Assembly: GCA_947625305.1 (NCBI GenBank)
Contig: CANQNW010000004.1
Coordinates: 1 to 64,000 of the forward strand
Source of the DNA: Candidatus Gastranaerophilales bacterium
GTDB lineage: Bacteria; Cyanobacteriota; Vampirovibrionia; Gastranaerophilales; Gastranaerophilaceae
Length of the DNA: 64,000 nt
Direction of reading: 5' to 3'
Shown: piece after piece, positions 33,252 to 58,743 of the stretch
Layout of the letters: the number at the start of each line of letters is the position of its first letter
Position numbering within the stretch: position 1 is the stretch's first letter
Made by a program: the position numbers and the translations under genes
Notes under the pieces: generated by a model
The model's database searches: none
Told to the model about the DNA's origin: nothing
Seen by the model: the letters and a program-made list of their open reading frames with translations, nothing else

Positions 33252-33494
33252 TTATTTACAATACTGACCCTCTGTATGATGACCTACCAATTTCCCTCTG
33301 CTATCATAATCTGCACAACTTCTATACTGGTTATGAGAAATAGGATCACAAGCGCCCCAAGTATAACAGTCACTATAACCGCCACCCACGTGACCATATC
33401 CGGTAACTGCCGTTAAATCGCCTTCTTCTACAATGTCTTTATACATTTCAAGGATTTGTTCTTCAGGTAAATTTTCTACATCATCAAAATCCAT
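33252..33494 (-). CDS. Putative modified-peptide precursor (80 aa, Cys/Gly/Tyr-rich core)
   Basis: 80 aa on the minus strand, ATG with AAAGGG 5 nt upstream. The first about 30 residues are acidic and helical (DDVENLPEEQILEMYKDIVE), like a RiPP leader. From about residue 32 the sequence is Gly/Tyr/His-rich with four Cys (GHVGGGYSDCYTWGACDP then SCADYDS and GQYCK). A consensus promoter with flanking inverted repeats lies upstream, shared with a divergent Xre gene; a radical SAM and an ATP-grasp gene follow nearby. It could also be an unmodified bacteriocin-like peptide. Confidence 0.6.
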   Translation of the reverse strand: MDFDDVENLPEEQILEMYKDIVEEGDLTAVTGYGHVGGGYSDCYTWGACDPISHNQYRSCADYDSRGKLVGHHTEGQYCK

Positions 33495-33626
33495 ATTAAC
33501 CCTTTCTAAATCAATTATTTTTGTTCAACACTCTGCCTTAATTTAAAAATATAAAGTCCAGAAAGCGGAATACTTTTATTTTTTAAAATTTCTTGATTTT
33601 TAAATTCAAGATAAATTAACACTGTC

Positions 33627-33676
33627 TGATTATATTTGATTGTAACACGCAATATATAACTAGTCAAATATAATCA
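33627..33676. promoter_or_regulatory. Operator: perfect 13-bp inverted repeat flanking the peptide promoter
   Basis: TGATTATATTTGA (33627-33639) and TCAAATATAATCA (33664-33676) are exact inverted copies. One arm overlaps the -35, the other abuts the -10 of the minus-strand promoter. The adjacent Xre protein is the obvious candidate binder. Confidence 0.75.
33639..33667 (-). promoter_or_regulatory. Promoter of the peptide gene
   Basis: Minus strand: TTGACT (33662-33667), 17-nt spacer, TACAAT (33639-33644). The transcript would have a leader of about 140 nt. Confidence 0.75.
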
Positions 33677-33751
33677 ATTTTATATTTTACTAATCATATT
33701 TAACCTTAAATATTAATCAAAATTAAATTATCTTTTAATAATGGTGGAATT

Positions 33752-34075
33752 ATGATTACTAAAGAACTTATAGGGAAAAAAATTCAACAGGCTCGTATCC
33801 GTAATCAATTAACACAAGAAGAACTTGCAGAAAAAATTGAATTATCAGAAAATTACTTGAGTAAGGTCGAACGAGGGCTAAACATGCTAAATTCCGTTAA
33901 ATTTTTAAGAATTATTGACGTTCTTAAAATAAATCTTGAAGAATTCGGAATTAATAATCAAAATATTTTAGAAACTAAACGCACTGCATTAAGTGAAATC
34001 ATCTTAAATTGTGATGATGAAACTTTAAAAATGATAACAGAAATTGCAAAAATTATTGTAAATCTAAAAAAATAA
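33752..34075 (+). CDS. Xre-family helix-turn-helix regulator
   Basis: 107 aa. HTH at residues about 8-62: KKIQQARIRNQLTQEELAEK then LSENYLSKVERG, the classic Cro/C1 type. The C-terminal helix may dimerise. GGTGG lies before the ATG. Divergent from the peptide gene across the 13-bp inverted repeat, so it most likely represses or activates that promoter. It has no lytic or toxin domain. Confidence 0.88.
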   Translation: MITKELIGKKIQQARIRNQLTQEELAEKIELSENYLSKVERGLNMLNSVKFLRIIDVLKINLEEFGINNQNILETKRTALSEIILNCDDETLKMITEIAKIIVNLKK

Positions 34076-34101
34076 TTTAAATTGTAATATTTCACATTTA
34101 T

Positions 34102-35115
34102 TTAAGTATGTTTATATACGTGCTTTCTTAAATCTTCAATCTTATGTAATTTATATGTAAAACAAATTCCGCATTTATCCATAAATCTTGACTTGCAATC
34201 CTCACAATTTTTATTTACAAAAGATAATCTTGCGTATAAATCTATTTTATTATGGAAGTAATTAATAAGTCCAGTTAAGGATTTGAAGTTGGTAATTGGG
34301 ACTTTCATATATTTTGAAAGTCCAAAGCACCTTACTGCATTTAAATCAGGCAATATGTCTATTACCGGATGACAGGTTTTTGAAGAAAGTATTGTCATAT
34401 TTTCCGTCAAGTTATTTTTTTTCGCCAAAACACCTAATTTTAGTAATAACCTTTTATTTTCAACTGTTAACAAACAATCCGGAATTGCATTACAATCATT
34501 ATATGGAACTATATTATTATTTAAACAATCCTCAAGGAATTCAAACAATTTTGTATGCATTTCTTCAAAACCTTTGAGAATATTTTTTGTTTTTTCTTTT
34601 TTATCATTAGGTAATGCCGTAGAAAACCTTAGTTCTTTACCCTCCGCAAGTTTTAATAAATCAAAAATATAAGAATAATCCATATCCTTAGAGTATAAAT
34701 TAATACCCAGTTTAAATTTTTTATTTATTTCCTTGAACTTTAATATATTATTTTTAAGCTTTTCATATTGTGAAGTTCCGATATCCTTTTCGGAATTGCA
34801 GTTAATTAAACAGCTGATTTTTTCATGTCCTAAAATATCAAAATATTTATCAAGATTTATTCCGTTTGTATAAATAACAATTGTTTTTATTTGTTCATCA
34901 GAAATTAAAATTTCTATTATTTCTTTAAAATGAGAATAAACCAGCGGTTCACCTCCGATAAGCCCGACCCGTTCTGTTCCGTCTGCTTTTATAAAGTTTA
35001 AAATTTTATTAAAATTTTCAAGTGTAACTTCTTCATTTTCTTTATTAACAAACTCCGAAGCAAAACAATACGGGCAATTTAAATTACACTTCCTTGTCAA
35101 AAATATATTAGCCAA
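34102..35115 (-). CDS. Radical SAM protein with C-terminal Cys cluster (candidate peptide modifier)
   Basis: 337 aa. It starts TTG at 35115, supported by AAGGAA 5 nt upstream. CNLNCPYC (C10, C14, C17) and GLIGGEPLVYSHF follow. The C-terminus has Cys-rich SPASM-like blocks: CHPVIDILPDLNAVRCFG and NCEDCKSRFMDKCGICF. This fits radical SAM/SPASM enzymes that make thioethers or other crosslinks in peptides. It lies on the same strand as the 80-aa peptide and the ATP-grasp gene. The substrate link is inference. Confidence 0.82.
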   Translation of the reverse strand: MANIFLTRKCNLNCPYCFASEFVNKENEEVTLENFNKILNFIKADGTERVGLIGGEPLVYSHFKEIIEILISDEQIKTIVIYTNGINLDKYFDILGHEKISCLINCNSEKDIGTSQYEKLKNNILKFKEINKKFKLGINLYSKDMDYSYIFDLLKLAEGKELRFSTALPNDKKEKTKNILKGFEEMHTKLFEFLEDCLNNNIVPYNDCNAIPDCLLTVENKRLLLKLGVLAKKNNLTENMTILSSKTCHPVIDILPDLNAVRCFGLSKYMKVPITNFKSLTGLINYFHNKIDLYARLSFVNKNCEDCKSRFMDKCGICFTYKLHKIEDLRKHVYKHT

Positions 35116-35171
35116 GATATTTCCTTTCTATATAACATTTAATTTAAGTTATTTATAATACCACCTTTTGT

Positions 35172-35220
35172 ATAAATTTTTGACATCCTTTAAATCTATA
35201 TTAATCCTTTCTTAAATCAA
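35172..35220 (-). repeat. Degenerate second copy of the peptide gene start
   Basis: This stretch matches 33467-33514, the ribosome site and first codons of the 80-aa peptide, in 32 of the 39 positions compared after the one-base indel. The copy would read INIDLKDVKNLYKRWYYK and stop; its ATG has become ATA, so it is vestigial. It overlaps the last codons of the ATP-grasp gene. Confidence 0.6.
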
Positions 35221-36118
35221 GCATTTCGCCCAGTTTAATATCCCATTTTTTATCTTCAAAATTATAAAATCCGGAAAACGGAGTAAATGTAATTTCATTA
35301 AAATAAATTTTATCATGATAAATTAACCAGTCTACACGAGCCAATTTAAAGCCTTCTGCTAAATTTTTTGACAATTCAACCGACAATTTTAAGTTATCGT
35401 CAATATCTTCTTGGATTAAGCTGTATTCAGGCATAAATTTTAAATTTATATGATTAAAATTATTATCAAATACACTAACCTCTCTGGGGAAAGTATATTT
35501 AATTTTTTGAAAAACTTTAACTTCACCGTTAAAACAATAGACTTCAATTTCTTGAGGTTTTTCATTCTTATCATCCCTTAATAACGGTTCAATTAAAAGT
35601 TTCGGGGTTATATCTTTGTATTGCATTTCAAATCCGGCAAAAGGATAAAACTTCAAACCCAGCCAATCAGTAAGTCTTGCCTTTAGTATTTCCATTAATA
35701 CAGGATTGTTAATAAGTTTTTCTTTATTTTTTACTATAAAATGCCACTTACAGCCATGATTTGCTTTGATAATAAAAGAATCGGGTAAAGTATCAAACGG
35801 AATTGAATCATAATCATCTCCAACCCATAAGCAAGGTTTTAAGTATTGTTCACCAATTTTTTCTTTTACAAAATCTCTTACTTTTACTTTATCTGTTAAT
35901 TCTGTTTTTTTAGGAGTTGTATCATTTAATTTCAGCCACTGTATCTTTTCTGAAAATGTCTTAGGGTTCTTTAAATTTAAATTTTTTTGAAGATACATCC
36001 TATATAATTTTTTTAAATATTTCGGATACTCGCTTTCAGGAAGTTCTACAATAAGACTATAATCATACGGCGGATTTGGAATATTATCTTTTTTAATTTT
36101 TTTTAAAAACTCAAGCAT
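35201..36118 (-). CDS. TupA-like ATP-grasp ligase (cluster A)
   Basis: 305 aa. Matches the TupA-like ATP-grasp family (PF14305): NPKTFSEKIQWLKLND, KVRDFVKEKIGEQYLKP, LPDSFIIKANHGCKWHFIVKN (ATP-binding Lys and His-Gly), EIEVYCFNGEVKVFQ, and metal-binding VDWLIYHDKIYFNEITFTPFSG. TupA adds amino acids in teichuronopeptide synthesis; relatives sit in glycan and peptide clusters. Here it lies beside a radical SAM gene and a peptide. A consensus promoter is 29 nt upstream. It shares the fold with the second copy at 49257. Confidence 0.85.
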   Translation of the reverse strand: MLEFLKKIKKDNIPNPPYDYSLIVELPESEYPKYLKKLYRMYLQKNLNLKNPKTFSEKIQWLKLNDTTPKKTELTDKVKVRDFVKEKIGEQYLKPCLWVGDDYDSIPFDTLPDSFIIKANHGCKWHFIVKNKEKLINNPVLMEILKARLTDWLGLKFYPFAGFEMQYKDITPKLLIEPLLRDDKNEKPQEIEVYCFNGEVKVFQKIKYTFPREVSVFDNNFNHINLKFMPEYSLIQEDIDDNLKLSVELSKNLAEGFKLARVDWLIYHDKIYFNEITFTPFSGFYNFEDKKWDIKLGEMLDLRKD

Positions 36119-38876: not shown

Positions 38877-39878
38877 TTATAGTGTTGTACAATATATTAT
38901 TACAAGCTCCCATAATTTATCTTTTGAAAATATGCTTGTAAAGACTCTTATATAATAGTCATCTGTTGTTATTTTTCCGTTTGTATAATAATAATATATA
39001 TTGCCTTTATCGGTTTTGAGCATTCTCATTTGTTTATTATAACTATACTTTGTTTGGGAATTTATTATTTTAAATCCTTGATTTCTTAAACATAAATCGG
39101 GATTATGTATAGCCTGCCATGATTTGGATTTAATCTTTATTATTATATTTTTTCCGTCATTATATTTTTGAACTTCCGCACCGTATTTTTTATACAAACT
39201 TTTTTCACTGTCACTTAAGGATAAATTTTTATATACAGGATGAAGAATTATTTTATATTCCGTTTTTTCTTCAGGCTCTAATTTACAATAACCGTAACAT
39301 AAAGCACCTAAAATATATATTATTAACGCATGGTATTTCCAAGTTTTATTTGATTGCTCCCCGTTTTTATTCATATTTAAAAGGAAATAAAATAATAGTG
39401 CTATTAAAATAAAATTAATAATACCTAACGGCACATGTATAATTTGTACGAATTGACTTAAATCATTATTAAATGATAAGGTTATTAATATAAAAATCCT
39501 TAGAATGTTTAAAAAGACAGCAAGACCAAAACATATAAACAAATTTATAATTAATTTAAAATCGGGCTTTTTTCCTTTAATTAAACAAATAAGTACAGCT
39601 AAAATCAAAACGTAATATAATAAAGCACTTCCGCTGCAAGGATAATCAATGTTTGTTATATTATTTTCAAATATTAATACTGAATTTTCACTTACAGACT
39701 TTACTTTGAAAAATGAAAAAATGTTTTCTATTACTTTTGCACTGATTAAGCGAAAAGGAACTCCCAAAAATATTTGAAAGTAATCTTTTACACTTTGGCG
39801 AAGTATAATTAAAATCGACAGCCAAAATAATCTTATATATGTTTTTTCATTTTTTATCAGTGTTTTAAATATATCCAT
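38877..39878 (-). CDS. Exosortase with fused EpsI-like domain
   Basis: 333 aa. Membrane-embedded exosortase: Cys81 in YPCSGSALLYY, Arg127 in NILRIF, His148 in IIHVPLGIINF, the canonical catalytic triad. Residues about 205-333 form an EpsI-like domain with WQAIHNPDLCLRNQGF (H258, C263). It cleaves PEP-CTERM proteins at the membrane for export or anchoring. It overlaps the start region with the end of the VIT gene by 22 nt, and that gene carries the only obvious PEP-CTERM tail here, so the pair is likely dedicated. Confidence 0.88.
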   Translation of the reverse strand: MDIFKTLIKNEKTYIRLFWLSILIILRQSVKDYFQIFLGVPFRLISAKVIENIFSFFKVKSVSENSVLIFENNITNIDYPCSGSALLYYVLILAVLICLIKGKKPDFKLIINLFICFGLAVFLNILRIFILITLSFNNDLSQFVQIIHVPLGIINFILIALLFYFLLNMNKNGEQSNKTWKYHALIIYILGALCYGYCKLEPEEKTEYKIILHPVYKNLSLSDSEKSLYKKYGAEVQKYNDGKNIIIKIKSKSWQAIHNPDLCLRNQGFKIINSQTKYSYNKQMRMLKTDKGNIYYYYTNGKITTDDYYIRVFTSIFSKDKLWELVIIYCTTL

Positions 39879-44888: not shown

Positions 44889-45859
44889 TTAATAAGCGAT
44901 TAGAACTAAATCTGCCTGAGGTAGTATCATCTGGCTTCTTCTTATCATAAATTTATAACCGAGATTTAAATTTTCCAATTGAGTTTTTAATTCAAAAAAA
45001 TCAATCGGGGTATGATACATAGCAATTGCAAGTACAGGCTTATCTTTTCTTAAAATATTAACTGCACCCTTAATTATATCAGCCTCACAGCTTTCAGTAT
45101 CCAATTTAATCAAGCCGATTTCTTTTTCACTTTTTGCATAGTATTCGTCAACAGAGATAAGTTTTGCATCTTTATCATCTATTTTAATTGTTTCGGATTT
45201 TTCACCAAGTCCATAGTTAACGGGAGTAATTTTTCCGCCGCAATTATCAACCGAAAGTATTTTATTTATTACATCTAAATTATCTTTAACCGGTTCAAAT
45301 ACATCTATTTGAGAGAGCGGGAAATATTTATGAAAAACCAATGCCGTATCCCCGTTTGCTCCGCCGCCATCTATAATAGTTTTTCCGTTTATTTTACTTA
45401 GTATTTCTTCGGGTAAATCTGCTAACCCGTACATATTTGAATAAAAATAAGGGTCAATTGTTAAAATTTCAGGGAAAGGCTGATTAAATGTTTTTAAAAA
45501 TTCGTTGTGTCTTTTTATTGTCTTTTTATCATAATCAGACCATATCCCTATTTTATACCTATCCCAATAAGGAACAAGTTTCATAAAATAATCCGCATAT
45601 TCGCATGATATATCATCTAAATTATTTTTTAATCGGGAAAGTTTTAAATTCATATCGTTGGATTTAAAATATTCACTAAATTCCTTCTGCCAATAGAAAA
45701 TTATATATGAGCAATTCCCCCCCCCCTAAAAAATAACCGAGCGAACTGATACTTTAAAAAGTCCTTTTTTATATCAAATTCCATGCCAAGAACAGATACT
45801 ATTTCGTGATGTATTTTTTTTTCACTAGGTCTTACGGAAATAAAATTTTTAATATTCAT
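44889..45859 (-). CDS. FkbM-family methyltransferase, frame broken at a G10 tract
   Basis: The true start is ATG 45859 with AGGAG 5 nt upstream (MNIKNFISVRPSEKKIHHE). The frame runs to a ten-G tract (minus strand, 45717-45726) and stops soon after; the 254-aa frame from ATG 45653 continues the same protein. Eleven or eight G would rejoin both, giving 322-323 aa. The domain carries IDGGGANGDTALVF (SAM site), DVFEPVKDN and LIKLDTESCEADIIKGA, typical FkbM. It probably methylates a sugar or small acceptor. Lies between cysK and tRNA-Ala. Either phase-variable or an assembly error. Confidence 0.8.
45717..45726 (-). repeat. Ten-G homopolymer in the FkbM gene
   Basis: Ten C on the plus strand, i.e. 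G10 in the coding strand, at codons about 45-48. Frame needs 8 or 11 G. Long G runs are very rare in this AT-rich DNA. Confidence 0.9.
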
Positions 45860-47940: not shown

Positions 47941-49209
47941 ATGTCAGCAGATAAGAAAATTAATATTTTAATATACGGTATATCAGGTATTTGTTGTTCT
48001 TTAATAAGAAATTTTCAAAAGAGTAAGAATATTGGCAATATATATATAGCAAACGGAAAACAAAATAAACTTTTAAAAAATATTACATATTTAGGTGATA
48101 CCCGTAATATTAAATTCGGAGAACACAAAAAATTTATAAAAGAAAATAATATTGATTTTGTTATCATATTTAGTGAAACATTACTTTATAAAGGGTTTGT
48201 TAATTTTTATAAGAACGAAGTTAAAATTCCCATTATAGGAACAACTCCAAAATGGTTCTTAATAGAATGCAATAAAGTATACGGGAAAAAATTTATGACT
48301 GAAAATAATATTAAAATTCCCAAATACAAAGTTATAAAGACGGAAGAAGAAATAAAGAATATAGATGAATTCGGATTGCCAATCGTAATAAAAAGCAACT
48401 ATTTAAAAGGCGGATATGGGTCTTACATATATAACAATAAAGAAGAGGCGAAAAAAAAGGCAAAATCAATATTCAAAAATGAAAAACAGGTTATCTTAGA
48501 GGAATACATAAAAGGGACGGAATTAACCCAGCAGTACATATGGGACGGGAACAATTTAGTTCCGTTACTTTCCGTAAGAGATTACAAACCGTTATGTGAA
48601 GGTAATAAAGGAATTAATACAGGCGGGATGGGCAGCTATACTCCTGTAGCTCTTACATCAAATCAAAGAAAGATGTTAGATGAATATAATCAGCATATGT
48701 CTGATATTTTTCAAAATTTAAAACCCGATTTTAAAGGTATTTTTGCCTCAAACATAATATTCACCGATAACGATATATATACTTTTGAACTGAATATGCG
48801 CCCCGGAATAACGGAATTTGAAAATCTTATTGAACATATGGATTGTGATATTTTAGAATTATTTTATAATATTGCACACGGGCAGGTTTCAAAAACGAAA
48901 ATAAAGTATAAGAATGGTTATACGGGATGCGTTGTTTTACAATATAAAAATATAGAAAAAAGAAAAAACAAAATTATTAGAATTTCAAACCCTGAAAAAT
49001 TAATACCGACACATATTCCTAAAGATATAAAAATTAATTATAATTTTTATTCATATAAAAAAAGTTCTTTATATGTCGGTTTTAGAATTTATAATCTGAT
49101 TACAACGAACAAAGAAAAATCTTTCAAGAATATTTATAATTTTTTAGAACGGTTAAAATTTAGAAATATATATTACAGAAAAGATATAGGCATAGATTAT
49201 AAACACTAA
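47941..49209 (+). CDS. PurD-like ATP-grasp ligase 1
   Basis: 422 aa. Follows glycinamide ribonucleotide synthetase (PurD) layout: N-terminal dinucleotide-like domain, IPIIGTTPKWFLIECNK with MTENNI before the ATP domain, GLPIVIKSNYLKGG, ELTQQYIWDGNNLVPLLSVRDYK, NTGGMGSYTPVAL and ELNMRPGITEFE. The usual GREHAL start is replaced by GISGICCSLI, and the C-terminus is divergent, so it is a paralogue, not the purine enzyme. It likely ligates a carboxylate to an amine in an unknown product. AAGGA precedes the ATG. First gene of an operon with a TupA-like gene and a second copy. Confidence 0.8.
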   Translation: MSADKKINILIYGISGICCSLIRNFQKSKNIGNIYIANGKQNKLLKNITYLGDTRNIKFGEHKKFIKENNIDFVIIFSETLLYKGFVNFYKNEVKIPIIGTTPKWFLIECNKVYGKKFMTENNIKIPKYKVIKTEEEIKNIDEFGLPIVIKSNYLKGGYGSYIYNNKEEAKKKAKSIFKNEKQVILEEYIKGTELTQQYIWDGNNLVPLLSVRDYKPLCEGNKGINTGGMGSYTPVALTSNQRKMLDEYNQHMSDIFQNLKPDFKGIFASNIIFTDNDIYTFELNMRPGITEFENLIEHMDCDILELFYNIAHGQVSKTKIKYKNGYTGCVVLQYKNIEKRKNKIIRISNPEKLIPTHIPKDIKINYNFYSYKKSSLYVGFRIYNLITTNKEKSFKNIYNFLERLKFRNIYYRKDIGIDYKH

Positions 49210-49238
49210 CATAAAAATGTATAACAATAATTTTTATA

Positions 49239-49247
49239 TGTTATAAT
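49239..49247 (+). promoter_or_regulatory. Extended -10 in front of the TupA-like gene
   Basis: TGTTATAAT (49239-49247), then 9 nt to the ATG at 49257 and no ribosome site: an internal, possibly leaderless promoter. Confidence 0.45.
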
Positions 49248-49256
49248 TATTTCTAC

Positions 49257-50168
49257 ATGAGAAATTTTATAATAGATAAACTTATATACGATTATTATTT
49301 CAATAAAACAGGAGGGTTTTATCCCTTTTTTAAATATTGTCCTGACTATTTAAAAGAGTACTATCTTAAAAAGAGAGCATATAATGTTTTAGGATATGAA
49401 TATAATTTTAAAGAGCCGAAAACTCTTAATGAAAAAATACGCTGGCTTGTTTATAACGAGAAACTCGACCTAAAAACCAAGTTAACGGATAAAATTTTAT
49501 GTAAAAGCTATGTTGCTTTAAGACTGGGACAAAACCACAGTGCCGATTTATACGGAATATATGATAATTTTAAGGAAATAGATTTTTCCGTAATGCCGAG
49601 ACAATTTGCACTCAAAGCAAATCACGGCTGGAGGATGAACATTTTAGTTAAAAATAAAAGTAAATTATTAACGAACTATACTTCAATAGAAAAACTTACA
49701 AAAAGATGGTTAAGAACCAATTTATATGATTTCAGTCTTGAGCCTCAATATAAAGGGATAAAAAGAAAATTATTTGCCGAATATTTACGGCCGTGGAAAA
49801 ATGATTCTTTTAGAAGAGAAATACAGGTATATTGTTTTAACGGCAATCCCGTATTAATAGAACTTCCGCTCGGAATATATAACAGAATATATTATTCACA
49901 ATTTTATGATACCAATTGGAAGTTACAGAAATATTATACAAAACCCTATTATGTCAACCAAGAAAATCCCGCACCTCAAGAACTTGAGACGCTTTTAGAA
50001 TATTCAAAAATTTTATCCGCTGACTTTAATTTCGTAAGGATTGATTTTGCAATATTTGATAATAATATACATGTTGTGGAAATGACTTTTACACCGTGCA
50101 GTGCAATAATACCTTTTGCCGAGCAAAGTTTTGATATTGAACTGGGTGAAATGCTTAACATTAAATAA
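49257..50168 (+). CDS. TupA-like ATP-grasp ligase (cluster B)
   Basis: 303 aa. Same family as the gene at 35201: EPKTLNEKIRWLVYNEK, ALKANHGWRMNILVKN (ATP Lys, His-Gly), REIQVYCFNGNPVL, FVRIDFAIFDNNIHVVEMTFTPC. TupA-type enzymes link amino acids or similar to polymers. It sits between two PurD-like genes, an arrangement I do not recognise. A TGTTATAAT box 9 nt before the ATG suggests it can be transcribed from inside the operon. Function inferred only from fold. Confidence 0.85.
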   Translation: MRNFIIDKLIYDYYFNKTGGFYPFFKYCPDYLKEYYLKKRAYNVLGYEYNFKEPKTLNEKIRWLVYNEKLDLKTKLTDKILCKSYVALRLGQNHSADLYGIYDNFKEIDFSVMPRQFALKANHGWRMNILVKNKSKLLTNYTSIEKLTKRWLRTNLYDFSLEPQYKGIKRKLFAEYLRPWKNDSFRREIQVYCFNGNPVLIELPLGIYNRIYYSQFYDTNWKLQKYYTKPYYVNQENPAPQELETLLEYSKILSADFNFVRIDFAIFDNNIHVVEMTFTPCSAIIPFAEQSFDIELGEMLNIK

Positions 50169-50182
50169 AGAGGTTTTATCAA

Positions 50183-51467
50183 ATGCAAAAAGATAATAAA
50201 AAGATAAATGTTTTAATATACGGACTTAGAAGTCTTTCAACATCTTTAATAAGAAATTTTCAAAAATCCGATAAGCTCGGCAAAATATACATTATGGATA
50301 AGGGGAAAAATAACCTTTTAAAAAAAGTTACTTATATTGGCGATACAAGCAGAATAAAAGTATATGAACATATAAAGTTTATAAAAGAAAAAAATATCGA
50401 TTTTGTAATTGCATATCACGATTATTTAGAAATATTTGGGCTTGTAGACTTATATAAAAATAAAATAAAGATCCCCGTTATAGGTACAACAAGCAGATGG
50501 TATTTAATTGAAGCGGATAAACTTCACGGCAAAAAATTTATGACGGAGAATAATATTAAAACTCCCGAATATATAACTATAGAAAAAAAAGAGGATTTAA
50601 AAAATATCGATAAATTCGGTTTACCTATTGTAATAAAAAGCAGCTATTTAAAAGCAGGGTATGGTTCATATATATTTAATAATAAAGAGGAGGCACTCAA
50701 GAAGGCAAAAAGAATATTAAGAGAAGAAAAAACCGTTATTATTGAAAAATACGTATGGGGGGGGGGTAAAACAAGAATTAACCCAGCAATACATATGGGA
50801 CGGAAATAATTTAGTTCCGTTACTTCCCGTAAGAGATTATAAACACTTTTTAGACGGTGATAAAGGAGTTAATACGGGAGGTATGGGTTGTTATACCCCG
50901 GCAGATATTACGGAAAATCAAAAAAAATTATTGGATAAATATAATCAGCATATGTCTGATATTTTTCAACATTTAAAACCCGATTTTAAAGGTATTTTTG
51001 CCTCAAACATAATATTCACCGATAACGATATATATACTTTTGAACTGAATATGCGCCCCGGAATAACTGAATTTGAAACTCTTGTTGAACATATGAATTG
51101 TGATATTTTAGAATTATTTTATAATATTGCACATGGGCAGGTTTCAAAAACAAAAATTAAGTATAAAAAAGGTTATACGGGCTGTGTAGTGGTTGTAAAT
51201 AAGGATATTGCAAAGAGAAAAGAAACATTGGAAAAAGTATCAAAAAAGGAATTATTCCCCGATAATATTCCTGAAAATATAAAAATTAATTATAACTTTA
51301 ATACAGATAGAAATAATGTTATAATAAATAAGAGCAATAAAATTTTCAGTTTAATTGTAACAAATAAAAGTAAAACCTTTACTAATATTTATGACTATAT
51401 TAAATTAATAAAGTATAGGGATAAATATTACAGAAACGATATAGGTACGGAATATGAGCAAAGATGA
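50183..51467 (+). CDS. PurD-like ATP-grasp ligase 2, frame broken at a G10 tract
   Basis: It starts ATG 50183 after AAAGAGG. It is paralogous to the gene at 47941 (MTENNIKTPEY, GLPIVIKSSYLKAGYGS), then meets ten G at 50757-50766 and leaves frame, ending at 50809. The rest (from codon 3 of the frame at 50742: QELTQQYIWDGNN, PLLPVRDYKHFLDGD, NTGGMGCYTPADI, ELNMRPGITEFE) is intact. Nine or twelve G restore 427-428 aa. The tract replaces KGT of copy 1. Function as for copy 1; expression would depend on the tract length. Confidence 0.8.
50757..50766 (+). repeat. Ten-G homopolymer in PurD-like gene 2
   Basis: Ten G in the coding strand, out of frame by one base. Nine or twelve would be in frame. 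It has no equal in the paralogue at the same spot, which reads AAAGGGACGG. Confidence 0.9.
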
Positions 51468-51741
51468 TGATTTGTTATTTATAAATTATATAAATTACTT
51501 TGATGGGGACGATTTATATATAGATGAGTTTCTTGCGCTTAATACAAGTCCCAGACTGCCCGGTGAAAGCGGTTCGGGTGGTGGCTTTCAACCGACTGAT
51601 CTTACGACTGAATCAGGAGTGCCTACAACAATGCCGGAAGGTGGAGCTCTTCCGACAATCACAGAAGAAGGTACAAATGGTATTGGTGAAGGCGGTATTA
51701 CACTTCCTTCTAAAGAAAGTGGTGGTGGTGAATATAAATAA
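51454..51741 (+). CDS. Candidate precursor peptide, Thr/Glu/Gly-rich (95 aa)
   Basis: 95 aa, overlapping the end of PurD-like gene 2 by 14 nt, so it is translationally coupled. Residues 1-30 are acidic and aromatic, leader-like (DDDLLFINYINYFDGDDLYI). Residues 31-95 hold repeated Glu-Gly boxes: GESG (37-40), TESG (52-55), PEGG (61-64), EEG (71-73), GEGG (78-81), KESGGGE (87-93), interspersed with Thr and Pro. Thr/Glu-rich cores are the hallmark of ATP-grasp-made esters in graspetides, but no RimK-like enzyme is here. A disordered surface tail is the alternative. Confidence 0.55.
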   Translation: MSKDDDLLFINYINYFDGDDLYIDEFLALNTSPRLPGESGSGGGFQPTDLTTESGVPTTMPEGGALPTITEEGTNGIGEGGITLPSKESGGGEYK

Positions 51742-51762: not shown

Positions 51763-52644
51763 TTATATCCCTGTAATTCTTATATTGTTTAAAACCATAT
51801 CAATAACATCAGAGCCGTAAATTTGTTTAATATCGTTTTGTTGTTTAATTATTTCAAAAGCTTTTTCTACATCCCTTATATCATATTCATTAAACGGAAA
51901 GTTAATTAACAAATCCGTTACCTGATTAACTTCCTCTTCACTTAATAATTTTGATAACATTTTCCGTTTTATTTTAAAGGAGTTATTTTTTTGTACTTCT
52001 TGGGTTTCTCTAATACCTGTAATCCTATTATTATGCATTCTGTACTTAACTAATTTTTCACCGATATTAGCAAGTTTACCGCCCTTAAACAGTACCTGCG
52101 TATATAACTCATAATCCTGAGCTGCCAAATAACTCAGATTATAATTTATATTATTTTCCTCCATAAAGGCTTTATCATATATTACTGTTGAATGACACAT
52201 AGGATTATATAAATTCATTACAAAATTAATTACCTCGGGAGTTTCGTATTTTACCCAGGAATTAGAAACAGTTTCCCCGAAGGTTTCTATATAAGTACCC
52301 GAGAGCTTAATTTCAGGATGTTCCCGCATATAATTTAATTGAATATCAAATCTGTAATTTGAAGATATATCGTCATCATCCGTATGAATAATATATTTTC
52401 CCCGTGCTAAATTATGCGCAATATGATAATTAAAAGTACAGCCTCTGTTTACATTATTTCTGTACAGCTTTATCCTCGGGTCTTTGAAGTCTTTTATAAC
52501 AGAATATGTATTATCCGTTGAACAATCATCTATAATTATGTATTCAAAATCACGATACGTTTGATTAAGTATAGATTCTATCGTTTCAGAAACAATACTT
52601 TCCCTGTTATATGTACTCATTACAACTGATAATAACGGTGTCAT
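51763..52644 (-). CDS. Family 2 glycosyltransferase
   Basis: 293 aa from ATG 52644 (MTPLLSVVMSTYNRESIVSE), chosen over 52680 because the family start is there. GT-A signatures: SVVMSTYNRE, IIIDDCSTDNTY, the DXD motif IIHTDDDDIS, and LAAQDYELYTQ. It adds sugars to a surface glycan or lipid. There is no Shine-Dalgarno; TAAAAT lies 7 nt before the ATG, so perhaps leaderless. Converges with the T/E/G peptide gene with 21 nt between. Confidence 0.9.
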   Translation of the reverse strand: MTPLLSVVMSTYNRESIVSETIESILNQTYRDFEYIIIDDCSTDNTYSVIKDFKDPRIKLYRNNVNRGCTFNYHIAHNLARGKYIIHTDDDDISSNYRFDIQLNYMREHPEIKLSGTYIETFGETVSNSWVKYETPEVINFVMNLYNPMCHSTVIYDKAFMEENNINYNLSYLAAQDYELYTQVLFKGGKLANIGEKLVKYRMHNNRITGIRETQEVQKNNSFKIKRKMLSKLLSEEEVNQVTDLLINFPFNEYDIRDVEKAFEIIKQQNDIKQIYGSDVIDMVLNNIRITGI

Positions 52645-52701
52645 ATTTATAATTTTATCACGGCAGATGAAAAAAAACATAATTTAATATAAAATACCAA
52701 T

Positions 52702-57345: not shown

Positions 57346-58743
57346 TTATTTATTAGTTTTTACTCGTCCGTAAATATCTTCATATCTTATAATGTCATCT
57401 TCTGATATGTAATCCCCTTTTTGAACCTCAAGAATTTTTAATACCTCCTTATAAGGATTTTGCAGCGAGTGCTTAGATTTAAGAGGAATATCAATACTCT
57501 GCCCTTTTGAAAGCTTATTTGTCTTGCCGTCTAATATAACAACTGCATTGCCTTCCAATACCACCCAATGCTCTGACCTGTGGTTATGTGATTGAAGCGA
57601 CAGTTTATGAGAAGGTAATACCGTTATAATTTTTGATAACCAGCCTTCTCCGGAGTTTAACCTTGTATAATATCCCCAAGGACGAAATACCGTCTTATGT
57701 ATTTGAGTTATTTCTTTATTATCTTTTTTTAATGCTTTAACCAGCTTATTAATTTCACTTGCCCTATCTTTATCACAAACCAATAAAGCATCTTCAGTTT
57801 CCACAACGGCAATGTTTTTCATATTTGAAACACATACAAGTTCTTTAGAAGAATAAATTAAAGAGTTCTCTACTTTATTAATCAGAACATTTCCCGTAAT
57901 AACATTTCCGTTTTTATCTTTTTCACTCTCGTTATAAATTGAATGCCACGAGCCTAAATCACACCATTTTGATTTTAACTCCGTCATAACAAGATTATCC
58001 GATTTTTCCATAATTGCATAATCTAAAGAAATAGAGGGCATTTTTTCATAGTTTTTATAATTGATATTTAAATTTTCATTAAACATATCAGATGAACAGC
58101 AATCCAAAATATCTTTTGCATACTTTGTAAAAGCTTCATATAAAACAGAAACTTTTGAGGTATAAATCCCACAGTTCCAATAATATTTTTTATCTTTTAA
58201 AAAGACTTGGGCTGTTTTATAATCGGGCTTTTCGATAAATCTTTCTACTTTTTTGCCAAACTTTAAAACCTCGGATGTTTTTATATAGCCAAAACCCGTT
58301 TCGGGTTTTAAAATTTTAGTTCCTACAGCTCCAATATATCCTTTTTTCGCAATATTTACAGCATTTTCCAAGGTTTCAATAAAGTCTTTATTATTTGAAA
58401 TAACAAAATCAACAGGCAGGATAACTAAAACTTCATCTCTTTTTGATTTTTTTAAGTATCTAAGAATGGATGCTATAGCAGGTGCGGTATTCCTTGCCAA
58501 CGGCTCGGAAATTACAATCGGAGATTTCATAATTTCTTTAAGCTGAAGTCTTGTATCCGTTTCAAGTGAAATATTTGTTATCGTTATTATATTTTTGGGG
58601 CTTGCTAAATTCATTAAAACTTCACAGGCATTTTGAAGTGCAGATTTTCCGTTATCTCTTTTTATTAACGATTTTGGATATAATGCCCTTGATAACGGCC
58701 AAAGTCTTTCTCCTGAGCCTCCTGCCAACAATATAAACTTCAT
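57346..58743 (-). CDS. manC: Mannose-1-phosphate guanylyltransferase/mannose-6-phosphate isomerase
   Basis: 465 aa type II enzyme. N-terminal nucleotidyltransferase LLAGGSGERLWPLSRALYPKSL (the consensus has T in place of E), FIEKPDYKTA, WNCGIYTSK; C-terminal cupin isomerase domain with TVLPSHKLSLQSHNHRSEHWVVLEGNA. Makes GDP-mannose for glycans. Divergent from the 58907 gene and upstream of ftsH. Confidence 0.93.
   Translation of the reverse strand: MKFILLAGGSGERLWPLSRALYPKSLIKRDNGKSALQNACEVLMNLASPKNIITITNISLETDTRLQLKEIMKSPIVISEPLARNTAPAIASILRYLKKSKRDEVLVILPVDFVISNNKDFIETLENAVNIAKKGYIGAVGTKILKPETGFGYIKTSEVLKFGKKVERFIEKPDYKTAQVFLKDKKYYWNCGIYTSKVSVLYEAFTKYAKDILDCCSSDMFNENLNINYKNYEKMPSISLDYAIMEKSDNLVMTELKSKWCDLGSWHSIYNESEKDKNGNVITGNVLINKVENSLIYSSKELVCVSNMKNIAVVETEDALLVCDKDRASEINKLVKALKKDNKEITQIHKTVFRPWGYYTRLNSGEGWLSKIITVLPSHKLSLQSHNHRSEHWVVLEGNAVVILDGKTNKLSKGQSIDIPLKSKHSLQNPYKEVLKILEVQKGDYISEDDIIRYEDIYGRVKTNK

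Follow-up and report, generated by a model that had tools for sequence, protein, structure and literature searches.

The window analyzed here is a stretch of 64,000 nucleotides from a Gastranaerophilales genome, in which a row of ATP-grasp genes on the plus strand ends in a small open reading frame. What could such a group of enzymes be making? The first-pass annotation had described three ATP-grasp genes in a row, followed by a 95-aa ORF overlapping the last of them by 14 nt. ORFs and profile scores confirmed the coordinates of the small ORF and of the first two genes, which are intact: a PurD-like ligase of 422 aa (PurD-like 1, 47941-49209, +; GARS_A 118.6 bits) and a TupA-like ligase of 303 aa (49257-50168, +), which scored 100.4 bits against PF14305, above the Pfam gathering score of 25. 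The third gene, however, is read as two ORFs because its frame breaks at a run of ten G. The 5' part of this second PurD-like ligase (PurD-like 2, 50183-50809, +) encodes the N domain and the first ATP-grasp half, with a frame that ends past the G10 tract (50757-50766, +), and the 3' part (50742-51467, +) encodes the second ATP-grasp half and the C domain in a different frame. The tract, which is in the out-of-frame state in the assembly, is the sole break between the two. The small ORF (51454-51741, +) starts over the stop of PurD-like 2. The FkbM (ORF 44889-45653), GT2 (51763-52680) and manC (57346-58743) genes reported nearby were also found, and neither a transporter nor a protease was recognised in the window cluster. 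AlphaFold models were poor for the TupA-like protein (mean pLDDT 41) and middling for the PurD-like protein (mean pLDDT 59), and no solved structure matched the TupA-like protein by sequence.

The PurD-like proteins might be the purine enzymes (GAR synthetase, GARS) of the organism, as PurD-like 1 matches TIGR00877 over its full length at 207.7 bits and no protein in this genome lies above the PurD cut-off. This score nevertheless falls short of the cut-off of 288 for GAR synthetase. The PurD-like proteins keep the full-length fold and the ATP-grasp residues, but they have lost the substrate-side motifs of purine PurD (GxGAREHA and FGDPE), and their genes lie in an accessory context, outside the purM/purN operons where real PurDs are located. 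Clustering with true purine GARS had been proposed as a check, and it was not observed: in the tree, the PurD-like proteins fall into a clade of their own, separate from purine PurD (support 99/98). Their nearest relatives are PurDs of the Gastranaerophilales themselves, at about 35% identity. Moreover, most genomes of the same genus contain neither a PurD-like gene nor PurD, and one (G031) contains a PurD-like gene plus a purN-purD fusion. A role in purine synthesis is thus very improbable. Strong PurD matches in other genera and families proved to be purine-operon PurD and were rejected.

In this Gastranaerophilales genus, a short ORF lies -10 to +23 nt past the end of most TupA-like genes; it encodes a conserved acidic leader (L..LS..EINELFxDIIE), and its C-terminus is hypervariable and often Cys-rich. 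When 56 precursor-like ORFs were counted, from loci many of which had been fetched via TupA, 44 came after a TupA-like gene, 42 of them within this spacing. Loci retrieved from non-seed genomes by the peptide model alone displayed the same pairing. The relative G022 has about 50 TupA-like matches, and 23 of the 24 loci examined there carry the leader ORF; among five TupA genes from other genera, none did. The leaders align (mean shuffle z 6.4) whereas the cores do not (0.5), and the Cys content is 0.8% in leaders versus 10.7% in cores, which are D/E-poor relative to the leaders. A conserved leader and a variable core at the family level, with the precursor gene adjoining a modifying enzyme, are the features of a ribosomally made and post-translationally modified peptide (RiPP). 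This arrangement, often with a radical SAM enzyme, is multi-copy in the genus; between copies the leaders are conserved, the cores unrelated. In G034, G024, G029 and G030, TupA-like and PurD-like genes again occur as a pair together with a small ORF that has the leader. It is the TupA-like enzyme, and not the PurD-like one, that constantly accompanies the leader peptides. In G010, seven peptide matches were found for one TupA match, and no adjacent recognised leader was found beside the TupA genes of G031, G006 and G018. Precursor matches in G232, G226 and G042 were dismissed as coincidental. The precursor peptides fit no family in Pfam or NCBIfam.

The N-terminal part of the 95-aa ORF in the window is acidic and contains DDLYIDEF, and its C-terminal part is rich in Thr, Glu and Gly; the first-pass annotation was correct in describing an acidic-aromatic, leader-like part and a Thr/Glu/Gly-rich tail. 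Its GC content by codon position (53/46/23%) is consistent with a true coding sequence, and the overlap of its start with the preceding stop is also found in G034 (L113). A full-length search of 41 genomes gave no full-length homologue, the weak matches (L077, L078) being unrelated. This search had suggested that there was no precursor, a reading overturned by the small ORFs present in gaps beside other ligase pairs. The window ORF resembles the leader family over a short stretch only. For the G034 peptides, 12 to 33 shuffles per thousand scored as well, and for one G024 peptide the match was not significant. The Thr/Glu-rich core is an exception among the otherwise D/E-poor cores. The window ORF is a probable precursor peptide. 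The expectation that small ORFs would accompany the ligases was borne out at related loci, but the window ORF itself showed a short leader match and no full-length homologue. Likewise, the proposal that ATP-grasp ligases make a modified peptide outside any described system gained its support mainly from the other loci.

The broken frame of PurD-like 2 could also mean that this gene is a decaying pseudogene, that its G10 run arose through drift or an assembly error, and that the cluster belongs to ordinary accessory metabolism. Indeed, G011 has a degenerate TupA/PurD remnant at the corresponding place. However, both halves of PurD-like 2 retain full-length homology around the single break, and the tract is one of many. 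The window contains two G/C runs longer than 6, both G10 and both interrupting a coding frame. The other one (45717-45726) breaks the FkbM methyltransferase gene (44889-45859, -) near its 5' end, and this gene is a further, putatively phase-variable surface gene adjoining the cluster. Four overlapping G9 matches were counted in the window versus 0.04 expected, a number reached in none of 100 shuffles. Genome-wide there are about 65 G9+ tracts (95 overlapping matches versus about 1 expected), 9 to 11 in length and mostly in surface-glycan-type genes; in-frame and out-of-frame states are mixed, and many tracts are in frame. In G020, two near-identical TupA 5' ends differ in tract length, one having G9 (in frame) and the other G10 (out of frame). 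These observations make the pseudogene reading quite improbable.

Some clusters have C9-C11 tracts within the precursors. Three tandem peptides flanked by two PurD-like genes in G034 include two with C9 tracts, and at L093, C11 and C9 tracts lie where leader meets core in two tandem precursors. As in contingency loci, a homopolymer tract lies in a coding region and a change in its length changes the frame. Poly-G contingency loci are known in Campylobacter, Helicobacter and Neisseria. They likewise have long G/C tracts in the coding 5' halves and promoters of surface genes and a mixture of on and off states, but here the tracts occur in uncultured gut Gastranaerophilales, where RiPP-like clusters have them within ligase and precursor genes. 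With tract-length variation within one strain deduced from paralogues and frame states, the poly-G/C tracts in this genome are, on sequence grounds, probable sites of phase variation. G026 has many tracts and no TupA-like gene, and the predicted phase variation is thus broader than these clusters. No report of phase variation in Gastranaerophilales was found in the literature searched.

Altogether, the locus is probably a member of a genus-specific, phase-variable family of RiPP-like clusters, in a PurD-containing subtype. For the substrate, the bond, the coupling and the final fate of the product, either secretion or attachment to surface glycan, we infer the following mechanism. The precursor, short and composed of an acidic helical leader and a core that is hypervariable, would be made beside a TupA-like ATP-grasp enzyme. 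The most likely role of this enzyme is to bind the leader and to couple a carboxylate to an amine via an acyl-phosphate, the candidate carboxylates being core Asp/Glu, the C-terminus or an external acid. In the PurD-containing subtype, one or two PurD-like enzymes would serve as extra ligases, probably for an amino-acid-like unit or a second linkage; in other clusters, radical SAM enzymes would carry out additional chemistry. Slipped-strand changes in poly-G/C tracts would switch several clusters, through PurD-like 2 here and through the TupA 5' end or the precursor elsewhere. Since the start of the precursor gene lies close to the ligase stop or overlaps with it, tract switching could alter precursor translation too.

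The ligases might instead attach amino acids or amines to a surface polysaccharide, the small ORF being incidental or a regulator. The sole characterised TupA-like domain, that of Cj1438C, forms an amide on the glucuronic acid of the C. jejuni capsule (PMC11800379). Cj1438C and the teichuronopeptide TupA share PF14305 with the proteins described here, and the same ATP-driven carboxylate-amine chemistry is expected. GT2 genes are present in the G024 and G029 loci, the FkbM, GT2 and manC genes lie near the window cluster, and surface-glycan-type genes are the main site of the predicted poly-G variation in the rest of the genome. However, Cj1438C is a glycosyltransferase fusion acting on glucuronic acid, whereas the genes of this genus each encode a single domain and adjoin a leader-peptide gene. 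Most of their loci have no neighbouring sugar genes, yet the leader peptide follows within a few nt; the TupA genes examined from other genera have different neighbours and no such peptide; and a leader z of 6.4 is not expected of incidental ORFs. Decoration of a polysaccharide alone is therefore rather unlikely. Less likely again is a combination of the two, in which the ligases would link the ribosomal peptide covalently to a carboxylate or amine of a surface glycan or the wall, giving a phase-variable peptide coat. The amide chemistry on uronic acids (PMC11800379), the peptide pairing, the hypervariable cores and a phase variation typical of surface structures would all suit such a coat, but most clusters lack glycan genes and a glycan partner is not directly evidenced.

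Among known RiPPs, a modified peptide made by a TupA-like enzyme would resemble graspetides such as microviridins, the omega-ester/amide RiPPs formed by ATP-grasp ligases. These too have a short precursor, whose leader is conserved and probably helical and whose core varies, encoded beside an ATP-grasp gene; tandem paralogous precursors are also shared, and some graspetide loci have radical SAM/SPASM partners (PMC8939145). The ATP-grasp enzymes differ, however: the TupA-like proteins match PF14305 only, with no NCBIfam maturase match, and do not belong to the graspetide (MvdC-MvdD) branch. The leaders have the consensus given above and not the PFFARFL or P-h-h-x-h (Pro-hydrophobic-hydrophobic) motif, and the cores, often Cys-rich, have no shared Thr/Ser/Lys plus Asp/Glu motif. 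The graspetide survey does not mention TupA or PurD (PMC8939145), and the literature searched yielded no RiPP family that uses a TupA-like or PurD-like ligase. Clusters like that of the window, numerous in uncultured gut relatives of cyanobacteria, look like systems for producing a short ribosomal peptide and altering it by ATP-driven ligases. More tentatively, with a chance that we put just short of even, they may represent a new ribosomal-peptide class with a TupA-like maturase and PurD-like or radical SAM partners, confined to one Gastranaerophilales genus, present in dozens of copies in some members, and with tracts in the ligase or some precursors that switch or exchange the product. If so, this would be a new peptide-modifying enzyme pair, and a purine enzyme would have been recruited to peptide or surface chemistry. 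Uncultured gut bacteria of poorly known lifestyle would also possess a large, individually switchable peptide repertoire. The pairs of a single TupA enzyme and a precursor are compact enough for direct work in E. coli.

A second cluster of this type spans 33252-36118 of the same window, on the minus strand. It comprises a second TupA-like ligase (35201-36118), a MoaA/SPASM-like radical SAM protein below all equivalog cut-offs (34102-35115) and an 80-aa leader peptide (33252-33494) consisting of MDFDDVENLPEEQILEMYKDIVEEG and a Gly/Cys-rich core. Radical SAM enzymes often follow TupA-like and leader-peptide genes. The seven that were scanned matched PF04055 strongly; PF13186 was above its cut-off in two, below it in three and absent from two, and no named radical SAM family was over its cut-off. 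These enzymes resemble those of radical SAM/SPASM RiPP systems (sactipeptides/ranthipeptides; AlbA, SkfB, SCM, GeoRSP) in their extra N-terminal part of about 100 aa and in the adjoining leader peptides with Cys-rich cores. In contrast, all named families score far below cut-off, and here the TupA-like enzyme is constant and the radical SAM enzyme optional. A B12 radical SAM gene adjoins the G024 and G029 clusters; its nearest match is the RiPP C-methyltransferase TIGR03975, below cut-off.

The window cluster lies on contig C4 of a 1.97 Mb genome bin (G000) of the gut order Gastranaerophilales. The first-pass annotation described three ATP-grasp genes in a row followed by a small ORF. The PurD-like ORF (47941-49209), the TupA-like ORF (49257-50168) and the 95-aa ORF (51454-51741) were confirmed, but the third gene is not a single ORF: GARS_A homology extends over a 5' ORF (50183-50809) and a 3' ORF (50742-51467), between which the frame changes at a G10 run (50757-50766). 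The cluster flanks include uvrB and a TPR gene. Since uvrB also adjoins a TupA-like gene with its peptide in G024 (contig C16), and a TPR gene adjoins decayed TupA/PurD in G011, this site looks like a hot spot. An exosortase-like (EpsH) protein (38877-39878) is encoded nearby, next to an 847-aa VIT-domain protein.

The PurD-like proteins did not cluster with true purine GARS enzymes, in keeping with the first-pass reading. They form their own clade (support 99/98), lack the GxGAREHA and FGDPE motifs, both present in nearly all compared Gastranaerophilales purine PurDs, and are not encoded in the purM-purN-purD operons that house the real PurDs. A minority of the genus encodes close members. 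The proteins retain the ATP-grasp lysine and the presumed Mg-binding E-x-N residues, so they probably work as ligases, though on a different substrate. No protein of G000 (bin 97% complete) scored above the PurD cut-off and PurD was not seen in most of the genus; these bacteria may therefore be purine auxotrophs.

The TupA-like and PurD-like pair recurs in G034, G031, G024, G029, G006 and G030. G034 has a pair of PurD-like genes with three small ORFs arranged in tandem between them. Two of these ORFs contain C9 tracts, and all three share the stretch 'LTxxQINELYDDxYIDSF', after which their C-termini are unrelated. Extension from such ORFs led to a peptide family with the leader 'L..LS..EINELFxDIIE', for which Pfam and NCBIfam hold no fitting family. 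The leader-peptide search model, A3, matched 12 genomes of the genus and gave no convincing match in other lineages; outliers were rejected. A TupA-like gene stood immediately upstream in 44 of 56 precursor cases (42 of these at -10 to +23 nt), a count mixing loci found by either partner, including TupA-fetched ones; loci fetched by the peptide model displayed the same pairing, in new genomes. The peptide was present at 23 of the 24 TupA-like loci examined in G022 and at 0 of 5 in other genera. On alignment, leaders match but cores do not, and cysteine rises from 0.8% in leaders to 10.7% in cores. A conserved leader with a variable core beside the ligases was found at family level; the compared genomes appear metagenome-assembled. 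At many loci a radical SAM protein follows that carries an additional N-terminal segment. A second such cluster, on the minus strand of the window (33252-36118), comprises a TupA-like gene, a radical SAM gene and a gene for an 80-aa leader peptide whose core is rich in Gly and Cys. At locus L093, two tandem precursors have C tracts where leader and core meet (C11 in one, C9 in the other), the likely core being in a different frame from the leader. Two proteins of 217-230 aa in G013 (L242 1228-1920; L255 1071-1724) seemingly repeat the leader motif. The 2.5 Mb genome G022 contains about 50 TupA-like matches, most of them accompanied by a Cys/Tyr-rich leader peptide that is longer (90-160 aa). 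Several of the TupA-like matches begin equally far from contig ends, which suggests repeats or recombination.

The link of the window's own small ORF to this family is weaker than that of other peptides. Its 'DDLYIDEF' was equalled by 60 and 164 of 5000 shuffles against G034 leaders and by 14 of 5000 against one G024 peptide; a second G024 peptide gave no leader match in this test. As in G034, the ORF starts before the PurD-like stop codon, and its codon-position GC is in line with coding sequence. The ORF is fairly likely to be the precursor.

Graspetide systems work in a similar way, but the TupA-like clusters differ from them in ATP-grasp type, leader motif and core motif, and were therefore not classed as such; a graspetide survey mentions neither TupA nor PurD (PMC8939145). 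The radical SAM partners resemble peptide maturases, yet score below every cut-off. Searches of open-licence PMC papers returned no TupA-type RiPP, consistent with the first-pass annotation, which recognised no described system.

The TupA-like Cj1438C reportedly forms an ATP-dependent amide on the C6 carboxylate of GlcA (PMC11800379). By analogy, we infer that the TupA-like enzyme here would activate a carboxylate for coupling to an amine, and that the leader would serve as the recognition element. PurD itself joins the glycine carboxylate to an amine, suggesting that the PurD-like enzymes add an amino-acid-like unit. The end product could be a free modified peptide or a peptide fixed to a surface glycan. 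Because the ligase stop overlaps the precursor start, the two genes could plausibly be translationally coupled, and switching off the ligase may then also lower precursor synthesis.

Such switching would involve G/C tracts, of which the window has a pair of 10-base runs and a single 6-base run. Counting G9 gives 4 occurrences in the window, where 0.04 would be expected, and none of 100 shuffles reached that count. The second G10 (45717-45726) breaks the frame of an FkbM methyltransferase gene near its start; this gene, which lies downstream of a tRNA-like sequence, is a putative independent phase-variable gene. G000 has 95 overlapping G9 matches, or about 65 tracts. Six tracts fall at own-genome clusters against 0.9 expected (P about 3e-4, computed post hoc on data already known). 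Among 67 tracts of length at least 8 within the stretches examined, 47 touch a long ORF, with in-frame and out-of-frame states both present. By inspection, the genes concerned (GT2, FkbM, sugar aminotransferase, deacetylase, radical SAM, SDR and similar) look mostly like surface-glycan types. Direct comparative support for phase variation comes from G020, where two TupA paralogues have near-identical 5' ends but different tract lengths, a G9 that keeps the frame and a G10 that breaks it. Family f1 is rich in tracts (up to 519 matches per genome), yet some members have none; most other families rarely have them. Searches of open-licence PMC papers returned no account of phase variation in Gastranaerophilales. 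Some intergenic tracts sit directly 5' of TATAAT-like boxes, which suggests promoter-spacer switching. At L080 3803, L087 4074, L088 3067 and L146 741, intergenic G8-G9 tracts are followed by the repeated sequence TAAAAGTGGTATAAT; these are probably several sites of promoter-spacer phase variation, spread over two genomes. In several surface-type enzymes, an N-terminal motif resembling 'KIIKLFGLKLKLK' recurs beside tracts and may be a common start that binds membranes. Finally, at L106 (3084-3093) and L110 (3080-3090) of the own genome, leader peptides are preceded by an apparent poly-G-bearing TupA N-terminal start whose TupA body is missing.
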